From Acidobacteriota bacterium (GTDB lineage Bacteria > Acidobacteriota > Terriglobia > Terriglobales > Acidobacteriaceae), in the NCBI GenBank assembly GCA_016196065.1, contig JACPYL010000001.1:124001-188000 (forward strand): DNA of 64,000 nt, written 5' to 3'. The notes beneath the pieces were generated by a model. It worked only from the letters and a program-made list of their open reading frames with translations, had not been told where the DNA came from and did not search any database. Positions within the stretch are counted from its first letter, which is position 1. Every line of letters starts with the position of its first letter. Shown in pieces: positions 16,584 to 39,036 of this stretch. The position numbers and the translations under genes were made by a program.

Positions 16584-16625
16584 TCAGAACATTTGAGGGG
16601 CGACTGCTCGAAGGGCGTGGACGAC

Positions 16626-19335: not shown

Positions 19336-20676
19336 CTAGCGGCTTCCCTTTTCCGTGGATAAAAGCGCGCTCACCTTCTGCATCTGCGCGGCGAATCGAG
19401 GAGCGTTGTAGGCGGACGGATCGTCGAGTTGCTGGAACAGGCCGCTGATGGCAGCTTTTATTTCTGCTTCATCAGGATTCTTCGTGTTCTGTTTATAAAC
19501 TGTGAACAGCGAGTCCAGCGACATCGCGGCTTGTCCGGCCGCGCGCTGACCCTGCTGCGAGATGGCGCTCGCATCGCCAGCAATCTTGCGCATGATGCTT
19601 AAAGTGAATGCCTGGTCGTATCCGCGAGCGTTTAGTGAGCCCGCCAGAGAGTGTGCAACTTCTGCTGCCCGATCAGCCGACGTCGCAATCTGTTCGCGAT
19701 CGCCGCTGAGCTGTCCCATCAATCCGCGCAGCGTAGCAAGTTCGGATTCGAGCTTGGCGGCAGTGGCCGCGTCCGTTTCCGCCGCAGCATAGCGGAAGAC
19801 CACGAAACGAGATGAGTTCCATGCCGGTACGCCCGGCGTTCGGCCGGCATATCCAACATCCTGGCGCCAGCTATCTTTCGGAGCCGTCAGGCTGTGATGG
19901 CAGGCAAAGCAATCCAGTTCGGAATATTCCGGCCACGTAGAACTGCGGGCGCGCCGCGCGAGGCGCTGCAGGCTGTCACGCAACTGCATGCCTTGCCCCA
20001 CTGCCCATTCTTTGGTTCCTAGCCATGGAGTGTCGCCAGAGTCCTTCCAATGTCGCGGCATCACCGCACTAAACAGATTCAGTTCGAAGGTCAAGTCGGG
20101 ATGTCCCGCGGCGATCATCTGGTGATCGACGGATTGCTCCTCAGTGCCCACGTGGCAGTGCAGACAAGTGTGGCTGCGTATCGCGATATCGCGGAGATCG
20201 CGCATCCCCAGTTGTGCTTTCTGGTCGCCAGTGCGCGCCTCCCACTCTTTCACAGTATGGGGTCCAAGCCAACCGGCAGCCGGACCATGGCAATGCTCAC
20301 AGCTCACGCCGTCGCTGATGTCGAAACTTTGTGCGCGCATGTCTGCAGCAACGGAGAGAGCATGACACGCCAGGCACTTGGGATTCTTGTCGGGAGCCGT
20401 CTTTAAGTTGAGGATTTTTCCGATGCGAACGGAAACATCGTTGGACAGCACCTGATAGGCGCGCGCATGCTTGTCCTGCCCAGCCCAGATGCTGTATTCG
20501 TTCTGCGCAACGTGAGTGATCTGCTTCGGCAAAATGCTGCCATGACAACTGCTGGAGGCGCATCCACCCGGGCCGTTGTATTTGCCCACGACGGAGTTTT
20601 GTGCGGATGCTGACACCGCAACGGCAAACGCTAACCATGCCGCAGATCGCCACGCCGCTTGTCTCTGGTTGCGCAT
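19336..20676 (-). CDS. Cytochrome c554-like multiheme cytochrome (five heme sites)
   Basis: 446 residues with a signal peptide ([15 protein letters not shown]). Heme attachment sites are CASSSCH at 39, which has four residues between the cysteines, then CLACH at 101, CEHCH at 126, CLHCH at 171 and CFACH at 256, followed by a His-rich end. Spacing and [14 protein letters not shown] resemble the cytochrome c554/NrfA-partner family. The C-terminal third (residues 300-446) is helical and heme-free. Predicted periplasmic electron carrier. It is divergent from the NuoEF fusion across ~200 bp and the flanking genes are electron carriers, so it is counted as part of that locus. Confidence 0.82.
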
Positions 20677-20879
20677 GCGAATTTTTATAGCAATGGTCTG
20701 CTTATACCCACTCTGCTGCTCGAAATCAATTGACGCCGTGGTTCGTCGCCGAACTGACGTCCAGCGTCTCTCGTAAGCCCAACGCCCCTAGTTCGCCAAT
20801 CCCCAGCGTGAGCGCTTAACGCTAAAATTTCTAGCAACCTTGTCACTATCTCTATGCAGAACCAAGGGGACCCTGGCGC
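20677..20879. other. Divergent intergenic region between pentaheme cytochrome and NuoEF fusion
   Basis: 203 bp separating two divergently read halves of the electron-transfer locus; promoters for both directions should lie here. AAGGGGAC about 9 nt before the GTG at 20880 is a good ribosome site. I do not see a convincing -35/-10 pair or a clear operator palindrome. Confidence 0.4.
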
Positions 20880-22553
20880 GTGATCGACGAACTCAGGTCC
20901 ATTCAGCATCAGTTCGGCTATTTGCCTGCTGATCGATTGCAGGAACTCGCCGCCAGGATTCACGTTCCGCTCAGCCAGATTCATGCGGTCGCGAGTTTCT
21001 ATCCCCACTTTCACCTCACGCCGCCCGCGCAAGCGGAAGTACGCGTGTGCGCGGATATGTCGTGCCATCTGCGCGGCGCTTCCGAACTGAAACGCGGCTT
21101 GGAGCAGGCGTTCCGGTCGGTCGGAACAGAGACAGTCGCGGTGCGAAACGTGTCCTGTCTGGGCCGGTGCGATCAGGCGCCGGCGCTTTCCATCAACGAT
21201 CAGATCTACTGCAATCTCGATGAAACACGTGCCCTGACACTGGTGCGCGACGCTCTCTCTGGCCGCGAACTGCCGGTCGAACCGCACGTCCACCGTTCCG
21301 TGCCGGTGGCGTCCGATCCCTACAACGGCGATCCCAAATATTCCCTGGTCAAGCAGTTCGTCGAAAATCCGGACTGGGCGGGTGTGATTGCCACTCTCAA
21401 AGCCGCTGGCCTGCGCGGCATGGGCGGCGCCGGCTTCCCGACGGGTAGCAAGTGGGAAATCGTTCGCAATGCCACTGGCAAAGAGAAATACATCGTCTGC
21501 AACGCCGATGAAAGCGAACCCGGCACGATCAAAGACCGCTTCATCATGGAGAACGTTCCGTATCTCGTGATCGAAGGCATGATCATGGCCGGACTGGTTA
21601 CCGGCGCGCGCCGTGGGATTCTTTACATCCGGCACGAGTACGAGCGTCCAAAAGACATTCTGCAGGAAGAGATCAATCGTTGTTATGGCGAAGGGCTGCT
21701 CGGGCAAAGCATCCTAGGTAGCGCACACGCGTTCGATCTCGAAATCTTTGTCAGCCCCGGCGGCTACATCTGCGGCGAAGAGAGTGCCCTGCTCGAAGCC
21801 ATCGAAGGGAAACGCGCCGAACCGCGCAACAAGCCGCCCTTCCCAGGCACGAACGGCTTATGGAATCAGCCGACCGCCATCAACAATGTTGAGACGTTTA
21901 CATTCGCGACCGTGATCCTCGCGCATGGCGCGGACTGGTTCAAGGCGCAAGGAGTGAACGGCGCGGCCGGAATGAAGTTCGTTGGCATCAGCGGGGATGT
22001 GAACCGTCCGGGAATCTTCGAAGTTCCGATGGGGACTAAGTATTCTCAGCTCATTCACGAATACGCCGGCGGGATCCTCGGTGGACGCAATCTGCTCGCC
22101 TACGCGCCGTCGGGGCCGTCCTCGGGATACTTGCCCGCGTCGATGGTCGATCTTCCTCTCGACTGGAACGCAGTGGCAGCCGCCGGGTCGATGGTAGGGT
22201 CGGGCGCAATCGTGGTGTGTGCTGAAGGGCGTTGCATGCTCGACATGGCGCTCAACGCCGTGCGTTTCTATCGCAACGAATCGTGCGGCAAATGCGTCCC
22301 CTGTCGCGTGGGTTCGCAAAAGCTCGTTGAAATGCTGACGGGATGGACCGAAGGCCGAGCCGCAAGCGGCGATCTGCCGTTGCTCGACGAACTCACCCAC
22401 GCCCTCAAACTGACCTCTATCTGCGGATTGGGGCAGGTTGTTCCCGTGCCCATTCAGTCGGTGTTGAAACATTTTCGCGAAGTTATCGACGATCACATCA
22501 CCAATCGCCGATGCCCTGCCGGAGTGTGCTTCCCGGCGCGAGGGACTGCATGA
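20880..22553 (+). CDS. NuoE-NuoF fusion: NADH-oxidising flavo-iron-sulfur protein
   Basis: 557 residues. Residues 1-~125 are a complete thioredoxin-like NuoE domain with [2Fe-2S] ligands in CADMSC (Cys57, Cys62) and CLGRC. The rest is NuoF: GLRGMGGAGFPTGSKW for NADH/FMN, CNADESEPGTIKDR, an SLBB region around residues 360-400, and the C-terminal [4Fe-4S] site ESCGKCVPCRVG with SICGLGQ. It should oxidise NAD(P)H and pass electrons through FMN to iron-sulfur clusters. No other complex I genes are nearby; instead its stop overlaps (ATGA) the gene for a NuoG-like/cNMP fusion, its likely partner. Related fusions occur in NADH-dependent hydrogenases and formate dehydrogenases, neither of which is encoded here. 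Confidence 0.9.
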   Translation: MIDELRSIQHQFGYLPADRLQELAARIHVPLSQIHAVASFYPHFHLTPPAQAEVRVCADMSCHLRGASELKRGLEQAFRSVGTETVAVRNVSCLGRCDQAPALSINDQIYCNLDETRALTLVRDALSGRELPVEPHVHRSVPVASDPYNGDPKYSLVKQFVENPDWAGVIATLKAAGLRGMGGAGFPTGSKWEIVRNATGKEKYIVCNADESEPGTIKDRFIMENVPYLVIEGMIMAGLVTGARRGILYIRHEYERPKDILQEEINRCYGEGLLGQSILGSAHAFDLEIFVSPGGYICGEESALLEAIEGKRAEPRNKPPFPGTNGLWNQPTAINNVETFTFATVILAHGADWFKAQGVNGAAGMKFVGISGDVNRPGIFEVPMGTKYSQLIHEYAGGILGGRNLLAYAPSGPSSGYLPASMVDLPLDWNAVAAAGSMVGSGAIVVCAEGRCMLDMALNAVRFYRNESCGKCVPCRVGSQKLVEMLTGWTEGRAASGDLPLLDELTHALKLTSICGLGQVVPVPIQSVLKHFREVIDDHITNRRCPAGVCFPARGTA

Positions 22554-24718
22554 GTTCGAAGCCCGCGGCCGAAATTCAACTTACGATTGATGGTCAGGCG
22601 ATCACCGTCCCGGCGGGAACTACCATCTTCGACGCCGCACGCCTCAACGGAATTCCTATCCCGACGCTGTGCCACCAGCAGAACGAAAATCCAGTAGGCG
22701 TTTGCCGCGTGTGCGTGGTGGATGTCGGCCAGCGAGTCTATGCCGCATCGTGTATCCGCCAGGTTGAAGCGGGCATGACGGTGAAGACGTCGACGGATCC
22801 GGTACGAGCCGCGCGCAATACGCTGGTGGAACTCCTGATGTCGGATCATCCTGCGCCTTGCGCCCGCCAGCAACAATCCGGAGACTGCGAACTGGAACGC
22901 CTCGCTGGAGCCGCCGGAATCAAGGAGCCACGCTATCCGCATCGCAGCACGCCGCGCGGCAAAGATGATTCTTCGGCAGTCATCGCGGTCGATCACGAGG
23001 CCTGCATCCTGTGCGACCGCTGTGTTCGCGGCTGCGACGATATCCGCAGTAACTGGGTTCTGGCACGTCGCGGCAAGGGATATCAGGCCGGAATTGCCTT
23101 CGACAACAACTTGCCCATGAGCGCTTCCTCCTGTGTCTCGTGCGGCGAATGTATGGTTTCTTGCCCCACCGGCGCTCTGACGAACAAGCGCGTGGTCGGA
23201 ACCCAACTCGGAGAAGGAGAAGTACTCGACCCAGCCGAGTTGTTGCACCTGCCAATTTTCCAGAATGTCTCTGGAACGTTCCTGGAGTTAAACCAGAAAG
23301 CCGTGGTAAAGCGGCACTACAAGGCAGGAGAGATTGTCTGCCGCGAAGGCGAATTCGGATCGACCGCCTTTTATATCCTGGAAGGCAAGGCGGAAGTTTT
23401 CCTCGCCAGCCCGATCGCACACGTTAAAACCGAAGGCAGCAGCAAAGGCTTCTTCAGCAAACTGCAAAGCCTGCTCGCGCCTCGCGAGGGCGACCGCCGC
23501 AGCGAAGAGTCGGATCGCCCGTTTATCCCCATCGATGCTTCGGTCGACTTGCCGTATGACAGTCCGATCGCCGAACTGAACCCTGGCGACATGTTCGGCG
23601 AGATGACGTGCATGAGCTACTACCCGCGCTCGGCGACGGTACGCGCCCAAACCGATTGCGTGATGCTCGAAATGTTGCGCAACGTGCTCGACATCCTGCA
23701 GCGCAATAAGACTTTCCGCGCACAACTCGAACGCAACTACCGCTCCCGCGCACTCGACTCCCATCTGCGCAGCGTGCCTGTCTTTGCCTCTCTGACGCAG
23801 GACTTTATCGATCACCTGCGCGATCGCGTGGAACTCATGCGATTCAATCCTGGACAAATCATTTGCCGCCAGGGTGATCCCGCAGACAGTTTCTATCTGG
23901 TCAGGATCGGTTTCGTAAAAGTGTCCGAGCATCGTCCGGGCGGGGAACTTGTGCTGGCGTATCTTGCGCGCGGCGGCTACTTCGGCGAGATCGCGCTTCT
24001 GAGCGGCAGTCCACGCTCGGCTACCTGCACGGCTCTCGACCATGTCGAGGTGGTGCGCATTTCCGGCGAGGATTTCCGCCTGATGCTCGACCGCTTCCCC
24101 GAAGTCAGACAGAAACTGGAAGTTATCGCCCACGAACGCATCGAAGAAAACCTGCGCCACACAGTGCAGGCGCAGAACGTTCCCGTCGATCAATTTCTCG
24201 CCCAGGGACTCATGGAAGCGCAGAGCCTGCTCGTCCTTGATCTGGAAAAATGCACGCGCTGTGATCAATGCGTGCGCGCCTGCGCAGACGCTCATCAGGG
24301 CGTCAGCCGGTTGGTCCGCGAGGGTTTGCGTTTTGACAAATACCTAGTGGCGACATCATGCCGCCAGTGTCGTGATCCACTCTGCATGGTGGGATGCCCC
24401 GTCGGTTCCATCCGACGCCGCAACACTCTCGAGGTAATCATCGAAGACTGGTGTATTGGCTGCGGCCTATGCGCCACCAATTGCCCGTACGGAAATATCA
24501 ATCTGCATCCATTTCCAGCGGAGTTGGATGATCCGGATCATCCGGGAAACAAGATTGCCGGTGTGCGGGTGAAAGCGACGTCGTGCGACTTGTGCCACGA
24601 TCACGCCGAGCCAAGCTGCGTATACGCGTGTCCACACGACGCCGCGCACCGCGTGAATCCACCCGAGTTCTTTGCGGGATTGCTGGCGCCGGCCGCGCCC
24701 AGCAAGGCCAGGAGTTGA
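22550..24718 (+). CDS. Fusion: NuoG-like ferredoxin domain, two cyclic-nucleotide-binding domains, four-cluster ferredoxin
   Basis: 722 residues from ATG 22550, overlapping the previous stop. Order: plant-type [2Fe-2S] domain (Cys41, 52, 55, 68); NuoG-like His-ligated motif (His100, Cys104, Cys113, but Gln107 where the third Cys is expected); two [4Fe-4S] sites (Cys152/155/158/162 and 195/198/201/205); cNMP domain 1 (~235-385) with FGEM...PRSATVRA and a charged insert ~290-335; cNMP domain 2 (~405-535) with FGEIALLSGSPRSAT, a near-perfect phosphate-binding cassette for cAMP; then a DmsB/HybA/NrfC-type module with 16 Cys in four groups (568-578, 604-616, 635-645, 679-694). No signal peptide or membrane segment is seen, so it is likely cytoplasmic, accepting electrons from the NuoEF fusion and handing them to the b-type cytochrome. 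Regulation by cyclic nucleotide is inferred from the cassettes. Confidence 0.88.
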   Translation: MSSKPAAEIQLTIDGQAITVPAGTTIFDAARLNGIPIPTLCHQQNENPVGVCRVCVVDVGQRVYAASCIRQVEAGMTVKTSTDPVRAARNTLVELLMSDHPAPCARQQQSGDCELERLAGAAGIKEPRYPHRSTPRGKDDSSAVIAVDHEACILCDRCVRGCDDIRSNWVLARRGKGYQAGIAFDNNLPMSASSCVSCGECMVSCPTGALTNKRVVGTQLGEGEVLDPAELLHLPIFQNVSGTFLELNQKAVVKRHYKAGEIVCREGEFGSTAFYILEGKAEVFLASPIAHVKTEGSSKGFFSKLQSLLAPREGDRRSEESDRPFIPIDASVDLPYDSPIAELNPGDMFGEMTCMSYYPRSATVRAQTDCVMLEMLRNVLDILQRNKTFRAQLERNYRSRALDSHLRSVPVFASLTQDFIDHLRDRVELMRFNPGQIICRQGDPADSFYLVRIGFVKVSEHRPGGELVLAYLARGGYFGEIALLSGSPRSATCTALDHVEVVRISGEDFRLMLDRFPEVRQKLEVIAHERIEENLRHTVQAQNVPVDQFLAQGLMEAQSLLVLDLEKCTRCDQCVRACADAHQGVSRLVREGLRFDKYLVATSCRQCRDPLCMVGCPVGSIRRRNTLEVIIEDWCIGCGLCATNCPYGNINLHPFPAELDDPDHPGNKIAGVRVKATSCDLCHDHAEPSCVYACPHDAAHRVNPPEFFAGLLAPAAPSKARS

Positions 24719-24725
24719 ATCCACA

Positions 24726-25643
24726 GTGTTGATCGATCACACACACCGCAAATGGTTGATCGGCAGCGCAATCGGACTTGCCGCCGCGACCGCGGTATAC
24801 GTTCCGTATAGCCTGCGCGCGCCGCAAGGTCCGCGTGGAGGGAGCGCGATTGGATTAACCTACGGAATCGTTGGCTTCCTGTTCATGCTGTTCGTAGGCA
24901 TGCTTGGCTTGCGCAAGAAGTTTCCAGTTTGGCGCGTAGGCCGGGCGCAATCGTGGATGCGAGGCCATTTGTGGCTTGGCCTGCTGAGTTTCCCGCTCAT
25001 TCTTTTCCACGGCGGGTTTCATTTCGGCGGCATGCTGACCAGGGTTCTGATGTGGCTGTTTGTTTTCGTTTGGATCAGCGGAATTCTGGGCGCCGCATTG
25101 CAACACTACATGCCCAGGTTCCAGACCACGCAACTTCCCATGGAGACCATCTACGAACAGATCGACCGGGTACGGGGACAGTTGGCGGAAGAAGCAGGGC
25201 AACTTGTGGAAGAAACGTGCTCTGCACTGGAAGGTGAAGTGTCCCGTGCCAGTGATCGGCAGCGCGCCATGTCGGCCAGTGCCGGGACGCAGGGCGGCCT
25301 TACGGTAGCGTCGGGACTGCAGGCCAACCAGCAAGTCAGTACCCAACTGCGCTCGTTTCTGAATGACGAATTGCTTCCCTACCTCGAACGTTCCGGTTAT
25401 GCGACGAGTCTCGCGCAAGACGCGAAAGCAAAGAAGATGTTTCAGCAGTTTCGTGTATTGCTCCCACCCGAACTGCATTCGAATCTGGATGACCTGGAAA
25501 ACATCTGCGAGGAGAAGCGGCAACTCGACAAGCAAGGCCGCTTGCACCGAATTTTGCACTGCTGGTTGCTAGTTCATATTCCGCTCTCCTACGCGCTGTT
25601 GCTGTTGGGAGCGGTGCATGCGGTTGTGGCTTTGAAGTTCTAG
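24726..25643 (+). CDS. b-type membrane cytochrome-like protein
   Basis: 305 residues. GTG 24726 is used, with AGGAG at ~24709 and 7 nt after the previous stop. About five hydrophobic segments: ~11-29, 42-61, 82-100, 106-125 and 279-303. His81, His95, His99 and, in the last segment, His278, His284 and His298 are placed like axial heme b ligands of ferric-reductase or NarI-like proteins. Residues ~130-270 form a soluble helical insert with several amphipathic stretches. I infer a quinone- or heme-mediated step across the membrane between the cytosolic iron-sulfur protein and the periplasmic cytochrome encoded next. No named family is recognised with certainty. Confidence 0.65.
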   Translation: MLIDHTHRKWLIGSAIGLAAATAVYVPYSLRAPQGPRGGSAIGLTYGIVGFLFMLFVGMLGLRKKFPVWRVGRAQSWMRGHLWLGLLSFPLILFHGGFHFGGMLTRVLMWLFVFVWISGILGAALQHYMPRFQTTQLPMETIYEQIDRVRGQLAEEAGQLVEETCSALEGEVSRASDRQRAMSASAGTQGGLTVASGLQANQQVSTQLRSFLNDELLPYLERSGYATSLAQDAKAKKMFQQFRVLLPPELHSNLDDLENICEEKRQLDKQGRLHRILHCWLLVHIPLSYALLLLGAVHAVVALKF

Positions 25644-25660
25644 GATTCTGAGATTTAGCA

Positions 25661-27016
25661 ATGCTGCGACGGACTCGCACCACCAAGAAACTCGCGAAGC
25701 GCATCGACATGCAGTACTTTGCGCGTCCGCATCCGTTCCGGCGCTGGCGATTCTGGCTGTCCGTGGCTGTGCCGTTGGTCGCCATGGCGTGGTTCCTTAC
25801 GCAGCGCGTACAGGGTGGACAGAAACTGTATGCGAGTGGCCCACTCTCCCATGCTCATGCCGTATTCACGCAGCAATGCGCCCTCTGCCACCTCACTCAG
25901 GCTGGAGCCTTCAGCGCCCAGGTAACCGATCAGGCTTGCCTGGCCTGCCATGATGCCCCGCTGCACCAGGCGGCCCAAACTTCTACTCCCGCCTGCTCGA
26001 CTTGTCACGTGGAGCACAAAGGTTCGTCGCTCCTGCTGGCAACATCGGACGCAGCGTGCACGCAGTGCCACAGCAACCTTCGAACGCGCGAAGGACAGCC
26101 GCACTACGTGGCATCCATTGCGAGTTTTGATCGCAAGCATCCAGAATTTGCGCCCCTTCGTTCTGGCGCACTGGATCCCGGCGGCTTGCGACTGAACCAC
26201 TACCTTCATTTGCAATCTAATTTGATCGGGCCGAATAACACGCGCGTGCAGATGACCTGTGACGACTGCCATCGATCGGAGTCATCCGGGAATTGGCCGT
26301 ACGCGGCGCCGGACGTTCATCCAGTCTCCGCAGAGATCGTTTCCGGGCATCGGCGTGCTCCGGCATACATGACCGTCCCCGAATTCGCCAGGCACTGTGC
26401 TGCCTGTCACACGCTGCAATTCGACAAACGATTCGGGAACGAGCAAGTACCGCACGGCAAACCGGAGGTAGTACGCTCGTTTCTACTCCAGAAATTCAGT
26501 TCCTATATTGCAGCGAATCCGGGCGCAGTTCATGAAGTCACTCCACCGATGCGGGAAATCCCGGAGAGGGCCCGAACACCGCGCGTAGCACGCAATGCCG
26601 CCGAGTGGGTGCAATTCCGCGTGGATGACGCGGAGTGGCTGCTTTATGCCAAGACTTGCAAGCAGTGCCACACGATCAAGTTCGCGGATGCTCCGCTGCC
26701 GGAGATCGCCAAGTCGAACCTCACAGCACGATGGCTGGAGCATGCACAATTCGGACATCGCGCGCACCGCATGATGTCCTGTACGACCTGCCACACTCGA
26801 ACAGCAGATAGCCGCGAAACTTCTGACGTACTCTTACCGGGAATTCAAACCTGCCAGCAATGCCACCGCCCCGAGGGCCCCGCCAAGGAATCGGCAGAAG
26901 GCCGGTGCTTCGAGTGCCATCAGTATCATGATTGGACAAAGGCTAAACCCACGAAGGGCGGATTCACGATTCAGCAACTGCGCGGCAACTCCGCAACACC
27001 GGTCCCGCAAGGGTAG
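25661..27016 (+). CDS. Membrane-anchored decaheme c-type cytochrome
   Basis: 451 residues; ATG 25661 lies 17 nt after the previous stop. One N-terminal membrane anchor (RRWRFWLSVAVPLVAMAWFLTQ) is followed by a periplasmic domain with ten CxxCH sites: CALCH, CLACH, CSTCH, CTQCH, CDDCH, CAACH, CKQCH, CTTCH, CQQCH and CFECH. Numerous additional His residues can supply distal ligands. It ends the plus-strand operon NuoEF-fusion protein-cytochrome b-decaheme, so it probably takes electrons from the membrane cytochrome. It is convergent with the second decaheme gene, only 28 bp apart. Confidence 0.88.
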   Translation: MLRRTRTTKKLAKRIDMQYFARPHPFRRWRFWLSVAVPLVAMAWFLTQRVQGGQKLYASGPLSHAHAVFTQQCALCHLTQAGAFSAQVTDQACLACHDAPLHQAAQTSTPACSTCHVEHKGSSLLLATSDAACTQCHSNLRTREGQPHYVASIASFDRKHPEFAPLRSGALDPGGLRLNHYLHLQSNLIGPNNTRVQMTCDDCHRSESSGNWPYAAPDVHPVSAEIVSGHRRAPAYMTVPEFARHCAACHTLQFDKRFGNEQVPHGKPEVVRSFLLQKFSSYIAANPGAVHEVTPPMREIPERARTPRVARNAAEWVQFRVDDAEWLLYAKTCKQCHTIKFADAPLPEIAKSNLTARWLEHAQFGHRAHRMMSCTTCHTRTADSRETSDVLLPGIQTCQQCHRPEGPAKESAEGRCFECHQYHDWTKAKPTKGGFTIQQLRGNSATPVPQG

Positions 27017-27044
27017 TACCGCTGCGCAAGCGTTTCCGTGCGAC

Positions 27045-30000
27045 CTACTGCTTGGCAGAAGAGGTAGCAGGCGGGTCATCCGTCACGGTGAACACCTCGC
27101 CATCGCGCAAATACATCTTTTCCATCTCTTGACGATTGAACGGCCGTGCGCCGCGTCGTCCAAACACGGCGAGTTGGTTGCCGTTTTCGTCGACTGCCCG
27201 ATCACGATCGATCCCCTTCGACACGGCCAAGGCCGGACCATGCGTGTGATACGTCGCAATCAGCTTCGGCGTGGGCCGCGGGCTGAAGCCTCCGAACGAA
27301 GGATTGTCAGGCGGCGAGAACAGTTGGACGACACGCAGTCCATTCTTTCCGTCTGCGACATAAGCGAACAGACTCGAACTCACCATGCCGAGTTTCACGT
27401 CATTGGCGTCGCCGATTTCACCGCCGGCGTTGAACATCTGATCCAGGCGAGGCTGTTCGGGATGTTCGACATCGACAATGGCTATCCCGTTCTTCCCGTT
27501 CGCGACATAAGCGTACGTGCGAGCCACATAGATATTGCGAGCATCGTCCAGGGCAATTGCGGCGCTGGACAAGGGTGTCGGCTGTGAGAGATGCGTGACA
27601 TCTAACACCTTCAATCCATTGCGGTCGACCACAAATGCATAGCGGAATTGGACAGCCATACCTCGCGGTTCGTTCAGGAATGGTGGGCCCAACTCCGCGG
27701 TGATTTTGGGCTGGAGCGGATTGTCGAGGTCCACGACGACGAGTCCGCGATCGCAAAGGATGTAAGCGAACGTTCCCGCAATCGTGAGGCGGCGTGCGCC
27801 ATTCAACTTCCCTTCCGGATTAAAGGCCAGCGCACGTTTGAGGAAATTGTTGGCAGGATTACCGTCGAGCAACGTGCCCACACCCGGACTCTTACTCTTG
27901 AGATCCGGATTGCCGACGATCACCAAACCTTCGTACTTGTCCGCAACATAAAGGAAGCCGTACATCAGATGGACGGACTGTTCTTCGTTCTCCTTGCGAT
28001 GAGACCGCAACGGATCCACGCCCAGCGTCGTGGGAGTCGCGACGGCCATCGCATATTTGGTCGGCAAGTAGAAGCGCTGCCCTAGAGGCGAAACCGGGGC
28101 CGTCACCATGCGCTCGGAAATATCTTTGTTGTCAAGATTCGCGATGTCGAAAATGCGAAGTCCGCCCTTACCCATGGCGGCATAGAGATACTCGCCGCGC
28201 GCCTGCAAATCGAGAACTTCTGATCCCGGATGAGGGTGCGATTCCTCCAGCGTCCGGTGGTTGGCGACATGCTTCTTAAAGTTGTCGGGATAAGCAAGCT
28301 TCTGGAAATCGCTTCCGATCACTGCAGGAGGCTCATCATGTTCGGTAACGGCCACGGCTTCGTATCCCTTGTCACCGGTGGCAACAAACACGTAACGTCC
28401 CATGAAATTCATGAAGTTCGTGCCCTGCAAAAGGAGTTGCGCCATCCAGGCGTTATTGTCGTTAGCACGCGAAACGTGGCAGTCCGTGCAGCCTTTCGTC
28501 TCCTTCCCGCGCACGGTATGCGGAACGAAGGTGCTGAAGGCCTGTCCGCTGAAGCCTTCAGCGGAGATGGTCTGCTGCTGGTAGTAGAGCCAGTCGCGGT
28601 CGTTGTTCTGCGAACTGACGAGCACTGCGCAGGCTGAGCGCACGGGCGCCACGCGGTTGCCGGTTACGGTGCCGTCGATGCCCAGGGTATAAATGTCGTC
28701 CCGAAGGACTTGAAAGTTGTAAGAAGTCCAGTTGCGCGTGGTGAGGCCTTCGTTGTGCAGCATGGGCGTCTTTTGGTTGGCGGTCATCGAAAGATGGCAG
28801 CCATAGCAGGTGGGCGCCCACGAGGAATGGCAGGTGTAACAAGTCATTCGGCTGTTCTGATGGGCGAGCTTGGATTCGTCTTGTGCTGAGTCGCCCCAGG
28901 TCTGTCCGTCCTGCTGAATTGTTTTCGCGAGGCGCGACTTCTCGCTGTAGTGCTCGTTGCCGGGAGTGATCGTGTCGCGCACCTGCACGACTTCCCATTC
29001 TTTTTCTTTCTCGAGCATCGAGCGCTGGAAGAGACGGTCGTCTTTCCAGTAGAAGCGACGCTCCTGCCACGGCGTGCGCAGGCCCGCAAGGTTGGTTCCG
29101 CCGGAGGGCGCGGCTGTCCCGGAGGTCGTTAGCGCGGCTTTTTGTTGAATTGTGCCGTGGCAATCGACGCAATCAATTTCAATCGCGTTGCGCGTCTCGC
29201 CGTAGAGTTTGCCGTTGCCGTGGCTGTCCTGCTCGAAATGGCAGTCAACGCAATGCATCCCTTTTTCGAGATGGATGTCTTTCAGGTGGACAGCTTTCTT
29301 CAGTTTGTCCGGGTCATCAAACGAAACTGCCTTGTCTTCCGAATCGAGCAGCGTACCTTTGCGGTCGTGTTTGAAGACGGCGCGGAAGATCCAGCCGTGG
29401 CTGTGGAAGTCGGCGAACTGCGTGTGTTGCAGTTTCTCGTTGAATTCGGGCGTGCCGGTTTTTTCGAGGAAATTGGTGTCGGACCACAAACCGCGAATTG
29501 CCGACCGCTCTGGATTCCGCGCCTGGACTTCGCTCTGCTCTTTCGCGCTCGGATGGCGTTGCTCGGCTGGCCACATGTGTTCGCCATCCATTTCGTTGTC
29601 CCACCATGTGTATCCGAAATAGGTGGAGACCATGTTCGTGCCGGGATGAATGTGGCAGACAATGCATTGGCTCGACGGAATCGAACGCGTGAATTGATGG
29701 CGGATCGGATGTCCAGACTCGTTGTGCGGAATCGCGGGATCGGTTGTGGCTGACTGACCCAGGTTGCCGTGGACCGCGTATCCGCCGGAATGTTCGGGCG
29801 AACGATCGTTAGCGTAGACAACGTGGCACGCACTGCATCCGCTCGCGCGATAGTCGCCGGGCTGATCGTTGGTGCCGGGAAACGACAGCAGCGGATCGAG
29901 CAGGCGAGTTTTTTGTAATCCTAGAAATACGGGATCAGTGCGCAACTCAGTTCCGAAACCGCGCGTGCTCAGCTTGATCTCCGGCTTTCCCGGATCTTCT

Positions 30001-30791
30001 TCCAGGCTTGGATTGCCAATCTCCGGCTTCCCTTTGCTGCCTCGCTCAAATACCCGCAACACGTTACCAGGCTGAGAAATTTCCCAGCGCTGGATCGGAT
30101 CGAGATACGGCAGGATTCCCTTCTTGCTCATTTCTTCGGGAGTCGGTGGCGGGAAGGTCATCAGGCGTTGCGGCGTGCCGTCGGCGGCGTAGCTCTCGCC
30201 GAAGTGCGGAGTTTTGAACGGGACAGCTCCGTTGTTGTAGAGCGCCGCGCCCCACAGCATGGCGCCGTGGGTCATCATGCTGGTTTGAACTTTGCGGACT
30301 TCGGCGGTGTGGCAGCCGGAAGTGCCGCAGGTTCTTTCCGCGACGCGCAGGTCGCCGGGGTTGACGAAGCGGACGTAGTCCCAGTTTTCGCGCAGCCACG
30401 CGGCGTAGGTGCGCTCGGGGTTGGCGGAAGAATGCGCGTCTTTGTTCTTGTCTTTGGGATCGCGGGGCTGGGGATGTGCCTGACTCTTTACTTGCGCATA
30501 CTCGGCGGAATTTTGTGGCGTGCCTGCGTTGATGCGGGCTTCGCTGTTTCCTCCGTGACAATCGGTACAGCCCAAGCGGACGGTTCCGGTTGCGTGCATC
30601 GTCGGGCTGTCGGTCGCGGTGTGGCACGTCAGGCAACCGGCGGATTTGCGGTCAGCGTCGGCTTGCGATTGCAGGAGTAGAACGTCGTTGCTTTGGGCCG
30701 AGGCGGAACTCTGGGTGCGAATGGCAATCGCCAGGCACACCGATGCGGTCGCGGCGAGCACGAACAACGCATTGTGACGAGTGCCTCTCAC
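27045..30791 (-). CDS. Decaheme cytochrome fused to an LVIVD beta-propeller
   Basis: 1248 residues from GTG 30791 (GAGGGA just upstream), with a signal peptide ([25 protein letters not shown]). The N-terminal ~760 residues contain nine CxxCH sites (CLTCH, CTDCH, CSACH, CIVCH, two CVDCH, CYTCH, CYGCH, CTDCH) plus CGTSGCH with four intervening residues, giving ten hemes. Residues ~770-1190 are LVIVD-type blades with recurring [55 protein letters not shown] and GLRVVQL. The combination suggests a secreted redox protein with a protein- or surface-binding propeller. It follows the outer-membrane barrel gene by 16 nt in the same direction. Confidence 0.88.
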
Positions 30792-30807
30792 ATTCCCTCA
30801 ACATGAT

Positions 30808-32988
30808 TCAAAACTGAAATTTCACTTTTGCGAATAGCGAGAACAGCACTCTGCCGTTATAGATGTCCTGCAATCCCTGTCCCGGCACCAGCGCCGAAGC
30901 GCCGCCACGGATGACAATGTTCTCGCTCAGCGGCGGACGGTACTCTACGCCCGCGCCGAAATCGGTTCCGATACTGTGACGGATTGGTTGCTGAAACAGC
31001 AGCAGCTGGAGCGGCTCTGTGCGATCGAAGCGCAGGTAGTTTGTGTTTGCGAAGGCGCGCAGTTTGGGCGTGACGTCGAAGTCTGCGCCGAGATTGAAAA
31101 CGTAGATGCCTGGGTTGACGAAGTTCGACTGGCCTTCTTCTTTGTTCGAGCGCAGATCGGGCAGCAGGCTCATTGGAGTGACTAAGGCCACGCCGGTGGA
31201 GGTCAGGCGGATGCCTTCGTGATCCCAGAAGCTGTTCTCGCTGCCGGCGAAGTGCATATCATCCACAATCGAGTCGAAGCCGTGGGCGGTGCCGTCTGTG
31301 CGGGACGCGCCGGAGCGATTGCTGGAATCACCCGATGCGTAAAAGAAGGAAGCCCGGTAGCGCATCCAGTCTTTGTCGATGGAGAGTTCCAGCGCGCCCA
31401 TGCGGGCGTTGATCTCGACACGTCGGCCGGCGATGGTGTTGAAGTCGTCGTGGCCGAGTGCCTGGTAGAAGGCGTTGCTGACATTGATGCGACCAATGTG
31501 GCCGTTGCCGGTCCATCCCAGATAGTAGGCGCGGATGTTATGCGGGCGCGGCGTGCCGTTGACTACGGCTCCGACGGGCGCGGGGCGGACGAGGAATCCA
31601 TTGTCGTCGTAGTGGATGCTGGCGTCGTCGCGGTTGTAGTGGAAACTGAATTCGGTGGTGTAGCCTTTGGCCAGAAAATCTTGTACGTATAGGTTCGCGA
31701 CATAGACCTGCTGTCCGCGACGGTGGGGCGAGTTCAGGCCGCTGTTGGTGTTTTTTTCGAGAAGGTCGAACCAGGCGACGTTGTAGGCAAGGCGGTTGGA
31801 ACGCAGATTTCCAAAGACGCGAACGCCGGGCTGCTCCTCCGAGAAAATAAATCCGCGGAAGTCGCTAGTGAATTGCTGGATTCCGGCGCGCACGGACACG
31901 AAGTCGTAGTTCGGGCTCAGGTCGCGGATTTTGGCTTCAACGAAGGCTTCCTGCAATCCTATATGCGTGTCGAAACGGTTCGTGCCTTTGCGGGTGTCGA
32001 CGTTGACGATGCCGCGTTCGCGGGTTTGCAGGAAGTTGAGATTGATCTCAGGCGTGATGCGGACGCGGAAATCCACGGGGCGAAAACTAGTATCGCCGCG
32101 GAAGAGGTCGAACGACAGGCGCAGATTCTCCGACATGAATGCCTGCTCGCCTCGTCCGAAGAATCCGGTGTCGCCGGGATCGGAACTCAGGCCGCTGGGG
32201 GTGGGAAGGCGGCGGGCGTCGAATCCGGTTTCGCTGGTGCCGGTGAAGTGAAAGAACCATTGCTGTCCGCCACCAGAAGAAAAAACCGGGTAGTCGCCCT
32301 TGAGCCGGTTGCGGTTGAAGGGATCGTACCAGTGGCCTTTCACGTAGGGCACGTCCGGCTGCGTTTCGTAGCGACGCCATTCGGGCATGGCGATGTCCCA
32401 GCGGTCGGGGTTGGGGGAGAAATTGGCGGACGCGGGCGGAATTTGTTCGGGCGTCGCTGGCGTCGTTTCGGTCTGGCTTCTCAGGCCGGGATAGGGATTC
32501 GTTGGACCTGTCGGCGCGGCCACGCAGGGCGTCCCCGGCACGCCAGAGGGGCAATGGGCGGCGGGAATCGCTTCGCTGGAGGCTTTCAGCGCAAGCTCGA
32601 GAACGCTGACGGGACGGACGACCTGGAAGCCGGAAATCGTCTGGGCTTCGAATCCTTCGCGCGTGAGCTTCACTTCATAGACGCCAAGGCGTACATCGCG
32701 CAAGCGGAAGATGCCTTCGACATTCGTCGTGACGGAGTAATGCTGGCCGCTAGCCGTACCGCTACTTGTACTCTGCAAGTCGAGCTGGACGCCGGGAATG
32801 CCGCGTCCCTGCGAATCGCGAATTACTCCCTGCACCGTCGCCGTCGTGGCGGGAGAACGTTCTGGAATGCGGCGATCCGATTGAGGCCGCCGCGCTGACA
32901 GAGGCGTCGTCAAAAAAAACAGCAGAAAAAGTCCGAAGCACGGCAGACGCAAAACGGACCACCGGAGCGCGCCTCCGCCTGTCTGCAC
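30808..32988 (-). CDS. Outer-membrane beta-barrel protein with carboxypeptidase-regulatory N-domain
   Basis: 726 residues; the start is taken as GTG 32988, before a hydrophobic signal-like segment (LPCFGLFLLFFLTTPLSA), but is uncertain. Residues ~50-125 form a CarboxypepD_reg/transthyretin-like domain (VQGVIRDSQGRGIPGVQLDLQS ... YEVKLTREGFEAQTISGFQV). After a Pro-rich linker, the remaining ~500 residues alternate polar and aromatic positions as in transmembrane strands and end with FAKVKFQF, a C-terminal aromatic as recognised by BAM. No TonB plug is apparent. Upstream of the LVIVD decaheme gene in one operon, it could be the pore of a porin-cytochrome conduit; this role is inferred from context only. 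Confidence 0.75.
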   Translation of the reverse strand: MQTGGGALRWSVLRLPCFGLFLLFFLTTPLSARRPQSDRRIPERSPATTATVQGVIRDSQGRGIPGVQLDLQSTSSGTASGQHYSVTTNVEGIFRLRDVRLGVYEVKLTREGFEAQTISGFQVVRPVSVLELALKASSEAIPAAHCPSGVPGTPCVAAPTGPTNPYPGLRSQTETTPATPEQIPPASANFSPNPDRWDIAMPEWRRYETQPDVPYVKGHWYDPFNRNRLKGDYPVFSSGGGQQWFFHFTGTSETGFDARRLPTPSGLSSDPGDTGFFGRGEQAFMSENLRLSFDLFRGDTSFRPVDFRVRITPEINLNFLQTRERGIVNVDTRKGTNRFDTHIGLQEAFVEAKIRDLSPNYDFVSVRAGIQQFTSDFRGFIFSEEQPGVRVFGNLRSNRLAYNVAWFDLLEKNTNSGLNSPHRRGQQVYVANLYVQDFLAKGYTTEFSFHYNRDDASIHYDDNGFLVRPAPVGAVVNGTPRPHNIRAYYLGWTGNGHIGRINVSNAFYQALGHDDFNTIAGRRVEINARMGALELSIDKDWMRYRASFFYASGDSSNRSGASRTDGTAHGFDSIVDDMHFAGSENSFWDHEGIRLTSTGVALVTPMSLLPDLRSNKEEGQSNFVNPGIYVFNLGADFDVTPKLRAFANTNYLRFDRTEPLQLLLFQQPIRHSIGTDFGAGVEYRPPLSENIVIRGGASALVPGQGLQDIYNGRVLFSLFAKVKFQF

Positions 32989-34056: not shown

Positions 34057-36423
34057 CTACTTCGTCTTCATCACGTAAACCCCATCCCAATCCGCCTCGG
34101 GCGCGTGTTGCATGAATTCCAGCACGCGGTCCATAAATATCTGCGTCGGACCATCATCGGGAAAGTGTGTCAGCATTTCTCCCAGACGGCTGGCAGCTTC
34201 CTGCCAGTTCTGGGCTCGGTAGGCTTCCATGGCGTGGTTGTAGCGGGTTAGCAGAGGTTCGTATTTCTGTTTGTTTTCGGCGAAGTCCAGTAGTTCGTAG
34301 ATCGTTACCGGCAGGTTCTTGCCCTTGACGCGAATTTTGTCGAGATCGCGGCAGACGAATTTGTCGGCGACTTCGCGGTAGGTGCCTTCGCTGATCACGA
34401 TGCGTCCGCGGTATTCCTTGGTGATGCCCTCCAGGCGGGACGCGAGGTTGACGTTGTCGCCCATCACGGTCCAGGCCAGGCGCTTGGCGGAGCCCATGTT
34501 GCCGACGTTGACCGGACCGGTGTTCAGGCCGACGCCGATGGCAATTTGCTTGCGGCCTTCGGCCTTCCACTTGGCGTTGAGTTTGTCGAGGGCCTGGATC
34601 ATCTGTAGAGAGCAGGCGCAGGCGCGGTAGGCGTGGTCGGTTTGCGGATAGGGCGATCCCCAGAAGGCCATGATGGCGTCGCCGATGTATTTGTCGAGCG
34701 TGCCGAGGTTGTGAAAAATCACTTCGGTCATTTCGCCAAGATATTCGTTCAGTAGCAGGACTAGTTCGTCGGCGGTGAGGCCTTCGGACATCGTCGTGAA
34801 GCCGCGGATATCGCTGAACATCACGGTGAGGTTTTTGGTCTCTCCGCCGGGACGGATGTATTTCTGCGGATCTTTTTCGATGAGTCCAATCACGCCCGGG
34901 GACAGATACTGACCGAACGTCTTGCGGATCTTTCGTTTCTCGCCTTCTTCGAAAATCATGCGGAAACTGGTGATGACGGCGTAGTTGATGACCAGCGTTC
35001 CGGCGGGAATCACGCAGCTCAGCCACAATCCCCAGCGCGCGAAGCTGAAGTAGATGAACCAGGCGAAGAGTCCCAGAGTCAGGAAGAGCGATAACGTCGA
35101 ATACAGCGGCTTGATGCGGCTGAACCAGAATCCGAAGACCAGGCCGAAGATCAGGATCGTCGCTATGTCGATCATTTCTTCGTTCAGGCCGCGGGTTAAG
35201 AAGGTGCGGCCTTTTTCGTCGCTGTGCAGGAGGTTGTCGATGATGTTGGCGTGGACCTCTACACCCATGTAGCCGGAGTCCTGCTTCTGGAACGGCGTGT
35301 TGCGGAGGTCACCGATGCCGAGGGCGGTTCCGCCCATGATCACGATCTTGTCTTTGAAGGTTTCGGGCGGCACTGTGCCGTTGAGCACGTCCCACATTGA
35401 GTAGTGCTTGTAGGTATGGAAGGGGCCGGTGAAGTTGATGAGGACACTGCCGTCCTGCCAGGGTTTGAGTTGGTGGCGGCCAAATTGGATACGCTCCAGG
35501 CCGTTCTCGGAGATATAAGCCGCAATCTCCTGATCAGGAATTTTTTCGTACTCGAGGACCGCTTGCATGGCGAGCGAGGGAAAGAAATCCTGGTCCTGAT
35601 AGCGGACGATCAGCAGTCCGCGGCGGAGGGTGCCGTCGGGATCGGGGCTGATGTTGAGATAGCCGTAGGACGCGGCCGCCTCGGCTAACTGGGCCAGGTT
35701 CGCCTCAGCTCCGGGATACGCGTTGCCGCCGTGCTCCAGCCAGGCGCGGCTCATATCGAAGTCGCGGCCCTTCGACTTAGCCTTCAGCACCTGCGGAAAC
35801 GCTTTGGCCCAGACGATGTTGAAATATTCCTCGGCGCGCTTCGGATCGGAAGACTGGGCGCGGTCTTTGTCGAGAAACAGGTGGCCGAGAACGACCTTAC
35901 CGGATTGCTGCAACGCGGCCGCGAGGATCGCATCGTGGTCGCCGGCAGATTCCAGAGCTTTGATTTTTGCAGCTACGCTGGCTGGGGCCGAGGTCCCCAG
36001 CTCGCGCTGTAGTTGCGCCAGTGCCTGTCCAGCGGAATTGTTTTCGGGCGTGGGGAATGTGGCGTCAAAGGCGATTACTCCCGCGCCGCCTGCACTAAGC
36101 TTCTGCACCAGCGATGCGTAAGCCGTGCGGGGCAGGGGAAAAGCGCCGATATTCTGGAGCGTTTTCTCGTCGATACCGACGATCACAATGCGATCGTCAT
36201 GCGGGCGTTCCCCGCGCGCTGCAAATCGCATGTCGAGCGAACGCTGTTCGATGTTTTGCAAGAAGAGGAAACCGGCCTGGGTACTGCCGGCGATGCCCGC
36301 GAAGGCGAACAAGACGAGGCCCGCCAGTGTGACCAGTACAGCTAGAGCCAGGTCAATCTGACGGGCCGAAAATCTACCCAGCCATCGAGTCCAGCGAGAC
36401 CACCTTTGTTCGCGCAGGGTCAT
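34057..36423 (-). CDS. CHASE2-domain class III adenylate cyclase
   Basis: 788 residues. An N-terminal membrane segment is followed by a periplasmic CHASE2 sensor (~60-400: RIVIVGIDEKTLQNIGAFPLPRTAYASLVQKL ... VLINFTGPFHTYKHYSMWDVL), three hydrophobic segments (~420-500) and a cytosolic class III cyclase domain (~530-720). Metal-binding Asp residues are in FSDIRGF and KYIGDAIMAFW; Lys of LDKYIGD and Asp of VMGDNVNLASRLEG fit adenine rather than guanine specificity. It should make cAMP in response to an unknown envelope signal. The FecR-like gene lies directly upstream on the same strand, a common pairing. It may supply the ligand for the cNMP domains encoded at 22550-24718. Confidence 0.9.
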   Translation of the reverse strand: MTLREQRWSRWTRWLGRFSARQIDLALAVLVTLAGLVLFAFAGIAGSTQAGFLFLQNIEQRSLDMRFAARGERPHDDRIVIVGIDEKTLQNIGAFPLPRTAYASLVQKLSAGGAGVIAFDATFPTPENNSAGQALAQLQRELGTSAPASVAAKIKALESAGDHDAILAAALQQSGKVVLGHLFLDKDRAQSSDPKRAEEYFNIVWAKAFPQVLKAKSKGRDFDMSRAWLEHGGNAYPGAEANLAQLAEAAASYGYLNISPDPDGTLRRGLLIVRYQDQDFFPSLAMQAVLEYEKIPDQEIAAYISENGLERIQFGRHQLKPWQDGSVLINFTGPFHTYKHYSMWDVLNGTVPPETFKDKIVIMGGTALGIGDLRNTPFQKQDSGYMGVEVHANIIDNLLHSDEKGRTFLTRGLNEEMIDIATILIFGLVFGFWFSRIKPLYSTLSLFLTLGLFAWFIYFSFARWGLWLSCVIPAGTLVINYAVITSFRMIFEEGEKRKIRKTFGQYLSPGVIGLIEKDPQKYIRPGGETKNLTVMFSDIRGFTTMSEGLTADELVLLLNEYLGEMTEVIFHNLGTLDKYIGDAIMAFWGSPYPQTDHAYRACACSLQMIQALDKLNAKWKAEGRKQIAIGVGLNTGPVNVGNMGSAKRLAWTVMGDNVNLASRLEGITKEYRGRIVISEGTYREVADKFVCRDLDKIRVKGKNLPVTIYELLDFAENKQKYEPLLTRYNHAMEAYRAQNWQEAASRLGEMLTHFPDDGPTQIFMDRVLEFMQHAPEADWDGVYVMKTK

Positions 36424-37491: not shown

Positions 37492-39036
37492 ATGAAGCAT
37501 TGCATTTGGGATCGGTACGGACGGGTCGCCGCAGGAGCGTTGGTGTTGCTGATGGTGGCAATGCTGGCTACTTCGTGCGGCAGTGCCAGTTCGGTAGTAC
37601 CCACTCCTCCGCCGCCGCCCCCAGTGCCGCTCACTGCCACCGAGGTACAAACTGTCGTTGAAGATGCCGCACAGTCGCTGAACGTCCCGATGGTGATTGC
37701 GGTCGCGGATCGCTCCGGGAAAATTCTCGCCGTATTTCAAAATGCCGGAGCGCCCGCTACCTCTCCCGGCAATTTCGGGGCGCTCGTCGACAGTAAAGAA
37801 CTGGCCGTAGCCTTGGCTCGCACCGCCGCCCTGTTCAGCAACAACCAGGCTCCGCTTTCGAGTCGCACCGTGCGCTTCATCAGCGGTGTTCATTTTCCGC
37901 CCGGCATCGATAACGCTGGGAACGGAGACTTGTATGGAATTGAAAACACGAATCGCGGTTGTTCGCTGAACGCAACCTTCCTGCCCGCAAAGAATATTGA
38001 TCCCTCGCGATCGATCGACGGCCTGAGCCTGGGGCTCGGTATCATCACGGGCAAAGCCGACATCAACGATAGCGATTCAGCCGCAGTGAATCCGGGCGGA
38101 GTACCGCTTTTCAAGAATGGCTACGCGGTCGGAGGAGTGGGCGTCGTCACCGCAAGAACCGATGCGGCAGAGTTTGCGGCCTATACGGGAGCTCATCAGT
38201 CAGGACTGCTTCCCGACCCATCGCAATTGCCGCCGCCCGGTGTTGTGATTGTGGGCGGGATTGCCTTGCCCTTTGTAAATCAGACCACGCCGCCCCAGGG
38301 AATCGATCCCGGTACCACAGCCGGAACGTACTTCGTGGGACCAATACCGGGCAGTCTGCCTCCTGAAGGAGATCTGGTTGGGCCCAATGCTGGAACATCT
38401 GGGCTCACACAAGCGGATGTAACGACCATCATCAATCAGGCCGTGGCGACCGCGAATCTGACGCGCGCCGTGATCCGCCTGCCGCAGAGTTCTCGAACGA
38501 AAATGACGATCGCGGTTACGGATCTCGACGGCACCGTACTCGGCCTCCACCGAATGCCGGATGCCACCGTGTTCAGCGTCGATGTAGCCGTCGCGAAAGC
38601 GCGCAACGTGATCTATTTCAGTAATCCTGCGGGAACGCCCGACCTGCCTGGAGTTCCCGCCGGCACAGCCGTTTCGAATCGCACCATCGGATTCGGTGCC
38701 CAGCCCTTTTTCCCTCCCGGCATCAACGACTCCGCGCCGGGACCATTCTTCAATCTCTATACTTTTGACATTGCTCATCCCTGCACGAATGGTTCGCAAA
38801 CGGCGAATCCTGATCAGAATGGAGTAGTGTTCTTCCCCGGCAGCGTGCCGCTCTACAAAAACGGAGTGTTAGTGGGCGGACTGGGCGTAAGCGGAGACGG
38901 CGTCGATCAGGACGACTATGTAACCAATGCCGGAGCCAAAGGATTCGATGCGCCCGATAACATCCGTGCCGACCAGATAATCATCGACAGCGTACGTTTA
39001 CCCTACCTGAAGTTTCCAAGAAACCCTACTCAATAG
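37492..39036 (+). CDS. Lipoprotein with two GlcG/HbpS-type domains
   Basis: 514 residues; ATG 37492 follows GAGGTGG closely. The N-terminus VLLMVAMLATSCGSAS is a lipoprotein signal with lipobox Cys, followed by a Pro-rich linker. Two related domains follow: ~48-235 (VETAAQ-like VVEDAAQSLNVPMVIAVADRSGKILAVFQNAG ... LFKNGYAVGGVGV) and ~300-500 (TIINQAVATANLTRAVIRLPQ ... SRTKMTIAVTDLDGTVLGLHRMPD ... LYKNGVLVGGLGVSGDGVDQDDYV). These match the GlcG/HbpS family, some members of which bind heme or cobalamin. Each repeat carries the GGxGV loop. Next to a diheme oxidoreductase gene on the same strand, a heme- or redox-related role is plausible. Confidence 0.8.
   Translation: MKHCIWDRYGRVAAGALVLLMVAMLATSCGSASSVVPTPPPPPPVPLTATEVQTVVEDAAQSLNVPMVIAVADRSGKILAVFQNAGAPATSPGNFGALVDSKELAVALARTAALFSNNQAPLSSRTVRFISGVHFPPGIDNAGNGDLYGIENTNRGCSLNATFLPAKNIDPSRSIDGLSLGLGIITGKADINDSDSAAVNPGGVPLFKNGYAVGGVGVVTARTDAAEFAAYTGAHQSGLLPDPSQLPPPGVVIVGGIALPFVNQTTPPQGIDPGTTAGTYFVGPIPGSLPPEGDLVGPNAGTSGLTQADVTTIINQAVATANLTRAVIRLPQSSRTKMTIAVTDLDGTVLGLHRMPDATVFSVDVAVAKARNVIYFSNPAGTPDLPGVPAGTAVSNRTIGFGAQPFFPPGINDSAPGPFFNLYTFDIAHPCTNGSQTANPDQNGVVFFPGSVPLYKNGVLVGGLGVSGDGVDQDDYVTNAGAKGFDAPDNIRADQIIIDSVRLPYLKFPRNPTQ

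Follow-up and report, generated by a model that had tools for sequence, protein, structure and literature searches.

A locus that would carry electrons from NADH to multihaem cytochromes was analysed in a 64,000-nucleotide (nt) stretch of an Acidobacteriota genome (assembly GCA_016196065.1, contig JACPYL010000001.1, positions 124,001 to 188,000), referred to here as the window. The host is a soil bacterium with a genome of 5.5 Mb in 29 contigs. Seven genes make up the locus; those at its core belong together as a single conserved module and are not clustered by chance. With moderate confidence, gene and residue content point to a cyclic nucleotide monophosphate (cNMP)-gated NADH oxidase that exports electrons to haems of the periplasm and probably of the outer membrane. 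The original prediction had named the same seven genes and read them as a chain from NADH to the outer membrane. All of their open reading frames (ORFs), domains and spacings were verified; thus the observation itself is confirmed, and the interpretation is partly supported. The genes, together with a nucleotide cyclase that lies close by, are as follows.

19336..20676, minus strand: five-haem cytochrome with four CXXCH motifs and one CX4CH, a Cytochrome_C554 domain and a signal-like N-terminus
20880..22553, plus strand: NuoE-NuoF fusion (nuoEF), by its domains an NADH/flavin mononucleotide (FMN) diaphorase (2Fe-2S_thioredx, Complex1_51K, SLBB, NADH_4Fe-4S)
22550..24718, plus strand: NuoG-N/cNMP/4Fe-4S fusion of 722 amino acids (aa), with Fer2_4, Fer4, cNMP_binding and Fer4 domains
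24726..25643, plus strand: b-type membrane protein of no named family, read from profile searches, an alignment and a structure model
25661..27016, plus strand: decahaem cytochrome, from a domain and haem-motif scan, with a probable N-terminal anchor
27045..30791, minus strand: LVIVD-repeat decahaem cytochrome (lvivd) with nine CXXCH motifs and one CX4CH, an LVIVD domain and a signal-like N-terminus
30808..32988, minus strand: outer-membrane barrel (omp) with an N-terminal CarboxypepD_reg domain, 18 long modelled strands and AlgE as best match
34057..36423, minus strand: CHASE2 domain with a class III nucleotide cyclase (PF00211 match), the proposed partner of the cNMP domains

Layout and conservation of the module

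The plus-strand genes form the series nuoEF, fusion, membrane protein and decahaem cytochrome, and the barrel and LVIVD-decahaem genes form a minus-strand pair. An ATGA overlap joins nuoEF to the fusion (22550-22553). The membrane gene starts at GTG 24726 or TTG 24729, i.e., 7 or 10 nt past the fusion, and is followed after 17 nt by the decahaem gene; 16 nt separate the barrel and LVIVD genes. The strand arrangement of minus, plus, minus makes three transcription units and not one operon. The pentahaem and decahaem-LVIVD proteins of the original prediction are made more precise by the motif types listed above. The membrane anchor that it gave the decahaem protein is probable from the N-terminal stretch, although a hydropathy scan did not flag it. 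CRP-like and FNR-like sites occur in the window at chance level (24 found versus 22.8 expected, and 1 versus 1.82).

Synteny across lineages, which had been proposed as a check, proved positive, and the core recurs in several phyla. All seven genes are found in the same order in 8 of 10 fetched relatives. A further one (L018) has six genes, the contig stopping inside lvivd, and the last (L025) has five, with lvivd and omp absent next door; all ten thus have the four plus-strand genes and the five-haem gene, nine have lvivd and eight the barrel. In a phylum-wide draw of 396 Acidobacteriota genomes, the C-terminal cNMP-ferredoxin part of the fusion (cNMP and 4Fe-4S) was matched in 32 at E ≤ 1e-40, matches to the NuoG-like part only being ignored. 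The membrane gene lies within 340 bp of it in 30 of the 32, the exceptions being G372 and G178; in the latter a contig end leaves only a fragment of the match. A scan of named genomes, from which the best 80 of 496 confirmed stretches were taken, shows relatives in records of Acidobacteriota, Planctomycetota, Rokubacteria and Wallbacteria. Three records labelled Rhodanobacteraceae, Actinobacteria and Betaproteobacteria (L103, L112, L145) hold a fusion that nests among those of Acidobacteriota or Rokubacteria in the tree, a placement that suggests misbinning or transfer. The core is also present in records of the cultured species Granulicella aggregans, Tautonia sociabilis and Rhodopirellula sallentina (L099, L129, L146), and is thus experimentally testable.

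Removal of four duplicates left 104 unique loci for classification, with the window among them. Three of 20 stretches (L069, L070, L071) had been dropped; the last two match only the NuoG-like part, and that match in L070 belongs to a molybdopterin enzyme. A NuoG-N match is part of the fusion in 75/104 loci (termed fused or NADH-type) and is missing from the other 29 (termed unfused), of which L115, L125 and L147 are cut at the gene start and 26 are clear. Among the 75 fused loci NuoF is present in 70, the membrane gene in 62, the decahaem gene in 61, a five-haem relative in 56, lvivd in 31 and the barrel in 25. The corresponding counts for the 29 unfused loci are 0, 28, 28, 22, 11 and 9; the lower numbers are lower bounds, because the flanks of many loci are cut by contig ends or by the 10 kb limit. 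Fourteen loci have no membrane gene in the fetched stretch, and of ten such genomes searched whole, eight have a strong copy elsewhere (in G467 at a distance of some 12 kb). Some Planctomycetota show a changed order, with the membrane and decahaem genes ahead of nuoEF, or have parts lying apart.

Gain or loss of the NADH part seems to have occurred several times, as judged from the label changes in a quick tree. The tree of 101 rows has six changes versus a shuffled mean of 24.0. When L147, which is cut, and L072, which has a long branch, are left out, there are five changes in 99 rows, all five forced by well-supported branches, versus a shuffled mean of 22.4.

Proposed electron path and cNMP domains

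NuoEF gives strong matches to the NuoF and NuoE profiles, yet these are below the curated NCBIfam cut-offs. The fusion is composed of a NuoG-N part with one 2Fe-2S and two 4Fe-4S sites, two cNMP-binding domains, and four more Cys motifs of the 4Fe-4S type. The solved structures nearest to its N-part are HydA1 and formate dehydrogenase alpha, and the nearest profiles are A6 [FeFe] hydrogenase and HoxU, below cut-off. In NADH-type loci the 2Fe-2S Cys ligands are kept in all 73 rows with sequence at these positions, and the two NuoG-type 4Fe-4S motifs are kept in 75/75 loci. A NuoF domain is matched at one other place in the host genome (G000:C10), so that the NuoEF copy of the locus is probably dedicated to the module. 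Homologues of NuoEF in 13 genomes with a NuoEF-less locus are only 35-46% identical, and an unlinked NuoEF orthologue was thus not shown in these.

Other flavoproteins accompany the core in some loci. Five of nine divergent Acidobacteriota loci (L061-L068, L073; all but L067 were scanned) have a Pyr_redox-FHA protein nearby, which has a Fer2 match in L066, L068 and L073, a sub-cut-off Fer2 match in L063 and none in L064. L061 has an FHA-only ORF, and no Pyr_redox-FHA protein was seen in the scanned ORFs of L062 (one ORF) and L065 (two ORFs). In L072 the cNMP-ferredoxin is itself fused to a Pyr_redox domain. L140, L141 and L143 encode an NDH-2-like protein that ends in a cNMP domain, and so does L110 (14397-15998) beside its NuoEF. 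That one core is joined to different pyridine-nucleotide oxidoreductases is the strongest argument from sequence for NAD(P)H as the electron source, and supports the NADH part being one of several flavoprotein inputs. The NDH-2-like dehydrogenases are, in addition, another example of a nucleotide-linked NADH enzyme.

The membrane protein of the window has no Pfam (E ≤ 0.01) or NCBIfam match; a divergent relative in L065 has a sub-cut-off match to DUF4405. Four residues, His80, His94, His283 and His297 (numbered from TTG 24729), are invariant in 49/49 aligned rows and are kept in 90/90, 90/90, 87/87 and 86/87 rows of a wider set. They form two pairs with a spacing of 14 in each. Two-haem transmembrane proteins, bc1 cytochrome b and the NADPH oxidases among them, are laid out in this way, with His pairs of that spacing on two helices. 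A structure model, built from the window row and 48 of 59 usable rows, has a predicted local distance difference test (pLDDT) score of 91.5 and places the pairs in helices 73-95 and 247-303. Transmembrane segments were read at helices 4-30, 40-64, 73-95 and 102-135 and at the end of 247-303, with a helical insert in addition. A Foldseek search of the model against the PDB gave no match at E ≤ 0.001, and phmmer against the PDB gave three chance-level matches only. The His pattern is the one expected of a membrane wire with two haems b.

On the periplasmic side, a five-haem relative is found in 78/104 unique loci and has the CX4CH motif in 68 of those 78. Ten CXXCH motifs are present in 76 of 89 decahaem members, window counted. 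The haem part of the LVIVD protein shows a distant likeness to the ExtM model (80.7 bits, cut-off 800) and scores lower with the ExtN and ExtO models (ExtO 38.2 bits, cut-off 200). The barrel has no match to the Ext models at E ≤ 0.01, in a library whose inclusion of an ExtI model was not checked. Its structure model is confident from about residue 243, with about 18 long strands and a whole-protein pLDDT of 66.6. A fold search gave 305 chains at E ≤ 0.001; AlgE ranks first (E 8e-15, TM-score by target 0.66), and many of the next are ordinary porins. The lvivd and barrel genes adjoin on one strand in 33/33 loci that hold both.

The pocket motif of cNMP domains consists of a Glu and an Arg in the phosphate-binding cassette. 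Both residues are kept in both domains of the window fusion. The pocket Glu is kept in 104/104 loci; both domains keep Glu and Arg in 73/75 fused loci, and both Arg are present in 20/29 unfused loci. The loci that have lost both Arg are the nine divergent Acidobacteriota loci described above. Five of these pocket-less loci carry the FHA flavoproteins, as if phosphorylation had replaced the nucleotide.

The cyclase of the window lies about 1 kb from the barrel gene and is the only PF00211 (class III) match in the genome, other cyclase classes not having been searched. A single 285-aa ORF intervenes (33117-33974), with no Pfam match and no relative at E ≤ 1e-15 in 110 loci scanned. A cyclase catalytic domain is found in 17/74 fused loci (1.33 Mb, window left out) versus 0/29 unfused loci (0.47 Mb). 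When 34 fused-type genomes were searched whole, a cyclase was found within 15 kb of the locus in 21, where 0.54 was expected by density. However, these genomes were partly picked from loci known to hold a cyclase, so that 21/34, and 11/16 for single-cyclase genomes, are biased, and the Poisson figure for the linkage ignores kinship. Among the 13 of these 34 genomes not chosen for a cyclase, the window's own included, nine have one within 15 kb. The linked cyclase makes it likely that the cNMP domains of the fusion are regulatory.

The following path is proposed from the observed gene content, cluster and haem-ligand residues, pocket residues, and linkage of core and cyclase; the order and direction of the electrons, the gating, the site of the last step and the acceptor are inferred. 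NuoEF would transfer hydride from NADH onto FMN, and the fusion would relay the electrons to the membrane by way of its NuoG-N and C-terminal 4Fe-4S clusters. Two haems b, held between two helices with a His pair on each, would carry them across the inner membrane to the decahaem and five-haem proteins, which would take them up in the periplasm. Where the LVIVD-decahaem/barrel pair is present, it may be the terminal station at the outer membrane. The two cNMP domains sit between the NuoG-N clusters and the C-terminal clusters, and would act there as a switch supplied by the adjoining CHASE2 cyclase. Up to the periplasmic haems, the parts of the conserved core fit the chain of the original prediction. 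Flow from NADH to the periplasm would go down in redox energy and along the membrane potential, and would conserve no energy by itself; an overflow or regulated route agrees with this better than the main respiratory chain does. The host genome has three COX1-type matches and can thus respire oxygen. The role may be disposal of excess NADH at low oxygen, with ferric iron, humics or an imported oxidant as a possible acceptor, outside the cell or in the periplasm.

Opposing evidence, rival explanations and known systems

Several observations weigh against the favoured reading. On the input side, the middle Cys of an N5-type cluster site is missing from the window protein (22550-23200) and from most family members, with the remaining two each kept in 61 rows, and in L056-L060 there is no flavoprotein among the ORFs examined. 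The pocket Arg is altered in 11/104 loci, in one domain in 2/75 fused and in both domains in 9/29 unfused; thus gating is not universal. No cyclase lies within 15 kb in 13/34 of the NADH-type genomes searched. One of 12 core-only genomes searched whole (G074) does have a cyclase, about 11 kb from its locus; in core-only G293 one lies about 17 kb from a second locus copy, and in core-only G129 one is about 38 kb off. Thirteen more cNMP-domain matches, 12 of them above cut-off, are found elsewhere in the host genome, and the cyclase may serve those proteins instead. The core is split in part of the Planctomycetota, and of the ten genomes searched whole for the membrane gene one has a weak match only (L147) and one has none (G476). 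At the outer membrane, MtrB is not among the 50 best fold matches of the barrel, and PF11854 (MtrB/PioB) has no match in the host genome. Only 33/104 loci have the lvivd/omp pair in their fetched flanks. It is missing from those of the three cultured loci, where the core and the five-haem gene are present.

These last findings weaken the outer-membrane step of the original prediction, as the barrel is unlike that of a classical porin-cytochrome conduit and is missing from the fetched flank of most loci. With an AlgE-like barrel and no MtrB/PioB in the genome, the pair can be likened to a porin-cytochrome system by analogy at best. The barrel might instead admit a soluble oxidant (an oxyanion or an organic compound) that the LVIVD-decahaem protein reduces in the periplasm with electrons from NADH. 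Such a periplasmic reductase agrees with a barrel whose top fold is AlgE, an export pore, with ordinary porins next, and with the weak ExtM likeness of the LVIVD haem part; the ext operon pairs multihaem cytochromes with the porin-like ExtI (PMC5877670). However, every Ext match is far under its curated cut-off and the barrel has none, and we regard this alternative as rather unlikely. We think it less likely still that the NADH/Fe-S/haem b operon and the barrel/LVIVD pair serve separate functions and do not form one chain. The scarcity of the pair in fetched flanks, its absence next door in L025 and from the flanks of the Granulicella, Tautonia and Rhodopirellula loci, and the three transcription units speak for a separation. 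Against it, many flanks are cut, and records of Acidobacteriota, Planctomycetota, Rokubacteria and Wallbacteria all include loci in which the pair accompanies the core.

The cNMP domains could also be scaffolds with a structural role only, and the cyclase could be nearby by chance or by hitch-hiking. The nine divergent loci keep the domains without both pocket Arg, and the cyclase is out of reach in 57/74 NADH-type loci, as scaffolds would allow. This is nevertheless improbable given the pocket kept in nearly all NADH-type loci, the cyclase found in fused and not in unfused loci, and its proximity in nine of the 13 genomes not chosen for it. Least probable by far is inward flow, in which electrons of an outside donor would enter through the haems and reduce NAD+, a direction that the original prediction had left open. 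Diaphorases are reversible in principle and the sequence fixes no direction. Inward flow would nevertheless run against the membrane potential and uphill to NAD+, there is no proton-pumping subunit among the seven genes, and oxygen respiration is possible with the COX1-type proteins; it is thus disfavoured on energetic grounds.

The favoured gated NADH oxidase shares parts with several known systems. As in MtrCAB and other porin-cytochrome conduits, multihaem genes stand beside an outer-membrane barrel gene, with the decahaem gene directly next to it. Unlike those conduits, the barrel has about 18 strands and is AlgE-like, and electrons appear to enter from NADH and not from a CymA-type quinol oxidase. 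An MtrB-type conduit was rejected on the missing PF11854 match and the AlgE-like barrel. Domains of the NuoE, NuoF and NuoG N-terminal parts of respiratory complex I were matched, but all below NCBIfam cut-offs and with the middle Cys of the N5-type site missing; a complex I fragment was rejected, as a quinone-binding, proton-pumping membrane arm is lacking among the seven genes. The same three parts occur in HoxEFU, HydABC and FdsABG, in keeping with the best PDB matches of the fusion. However, a hydrogenase or formate dehydrogenase partner was rejected as well, because the seven genes have no hydrogenase or molybdopterin catalytic domain, and the output is to a cNMP-ferredoxin and a membrane protein. 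Rnf with the multihaem cytochrome MmcA likewise ties a cytoplasmic low-potential donor to a multihaem protein, but no Rnf membrane subunit was matched among the seven genes.

NADPH oxidases, ferric reductases and cytochrome b561 have two His pairs about 14 residues apart on two helices and pass a cytoplasmic reductant's electrons to the outside; the membrane protein described here differs in having no Pfam or PDB fold match, a separate Fe-S donor and a multihaem acceptor. The Geobacter extHIJKLMNOPQS genes, a selenite/tellurite operon (PMC5877670), also combine a porin, multihaem cytochromes, a b-type membrane protein and an Fe-S protein, and include the ExtM to which the LVIVD haem region is similar below the curated cut-off. 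In contrast, the gene products listed for ext include no NADH or cNMP part (PMC5877670), and the present locus has no Rieske domain. Verrucomicrobia clusters, proposed for humus-rich anoxic settings, also have an unusual porin beside multihaem genes (PMC5615132). Their periplasmic protein, however, has eight haems, and "NADH" and "cyclic nucleotide" occur 0 times in the main text of that paper. The original prediction knew of no named system with this composition, and no paper that names or describes the combination was found in an open full-text library, a search with most subscription papers and all bioRxiv preprints outside it.

Neighbouring genes and possible meaning of the module

Two genes were added to the limits of the locus as first drawn, the cyclase and the following gene.

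37492..39036, plus strand: HbpS-like (haem-binding family) putative lipoprotein, a frequent neighbour

The HbpS-like gene neighbours 30/104 unique loci and may be a further part of the module; a di-haem oxidoreductase (DHOR) gene (39258-40835) adjoins it. On the other side, genes for glucose-6-phosphate dehydrogenase, glucokinase and an MGH1-like glycosidase lie beside the module at 14038-19331, and a relative of the glycosidase is found near it in two Isosphaeraceae records (L132, L137). A link of these enzymes to sugar-derived NAD(P)H is possible.

More tentatively, and short of what we would call probable, the loci may represent a phylum-crossing family of second-messenger-gated electron exporters, with a common core of cNMP-ferredoxin, two-haem membrane protein, decahaem and five-haem proteins, interchangeable NAD(P)H flavoproteins and, in the NADH type, often a cyclase of their own. 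Cyclic AMP or cyclic GMP would open an outflow that bypasses quinones, and in the pocket-less branch phosphorylation through the FHA flavoproteins would be the switch.

Known routes of extracellular electron transfer mostly begin at the quinol pool, and their control by cyclic AMP is transcriptional. If the proposed function is true, cells would have a new means of setting their redox balance, a direct route from NADH in which the nucleotide controls the enzyme itself. Acidobacterium capsulatum and Acidicapsa species are described as capable of micro-aerobic iron reduction (PMC8790237), and Paludibaculum fermentans as an Fe(III) reducer said to have many multihaem cytochrome genes (PMC8407742). 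The module might bear on low-oxygen iron reduction by Acidobacteria.

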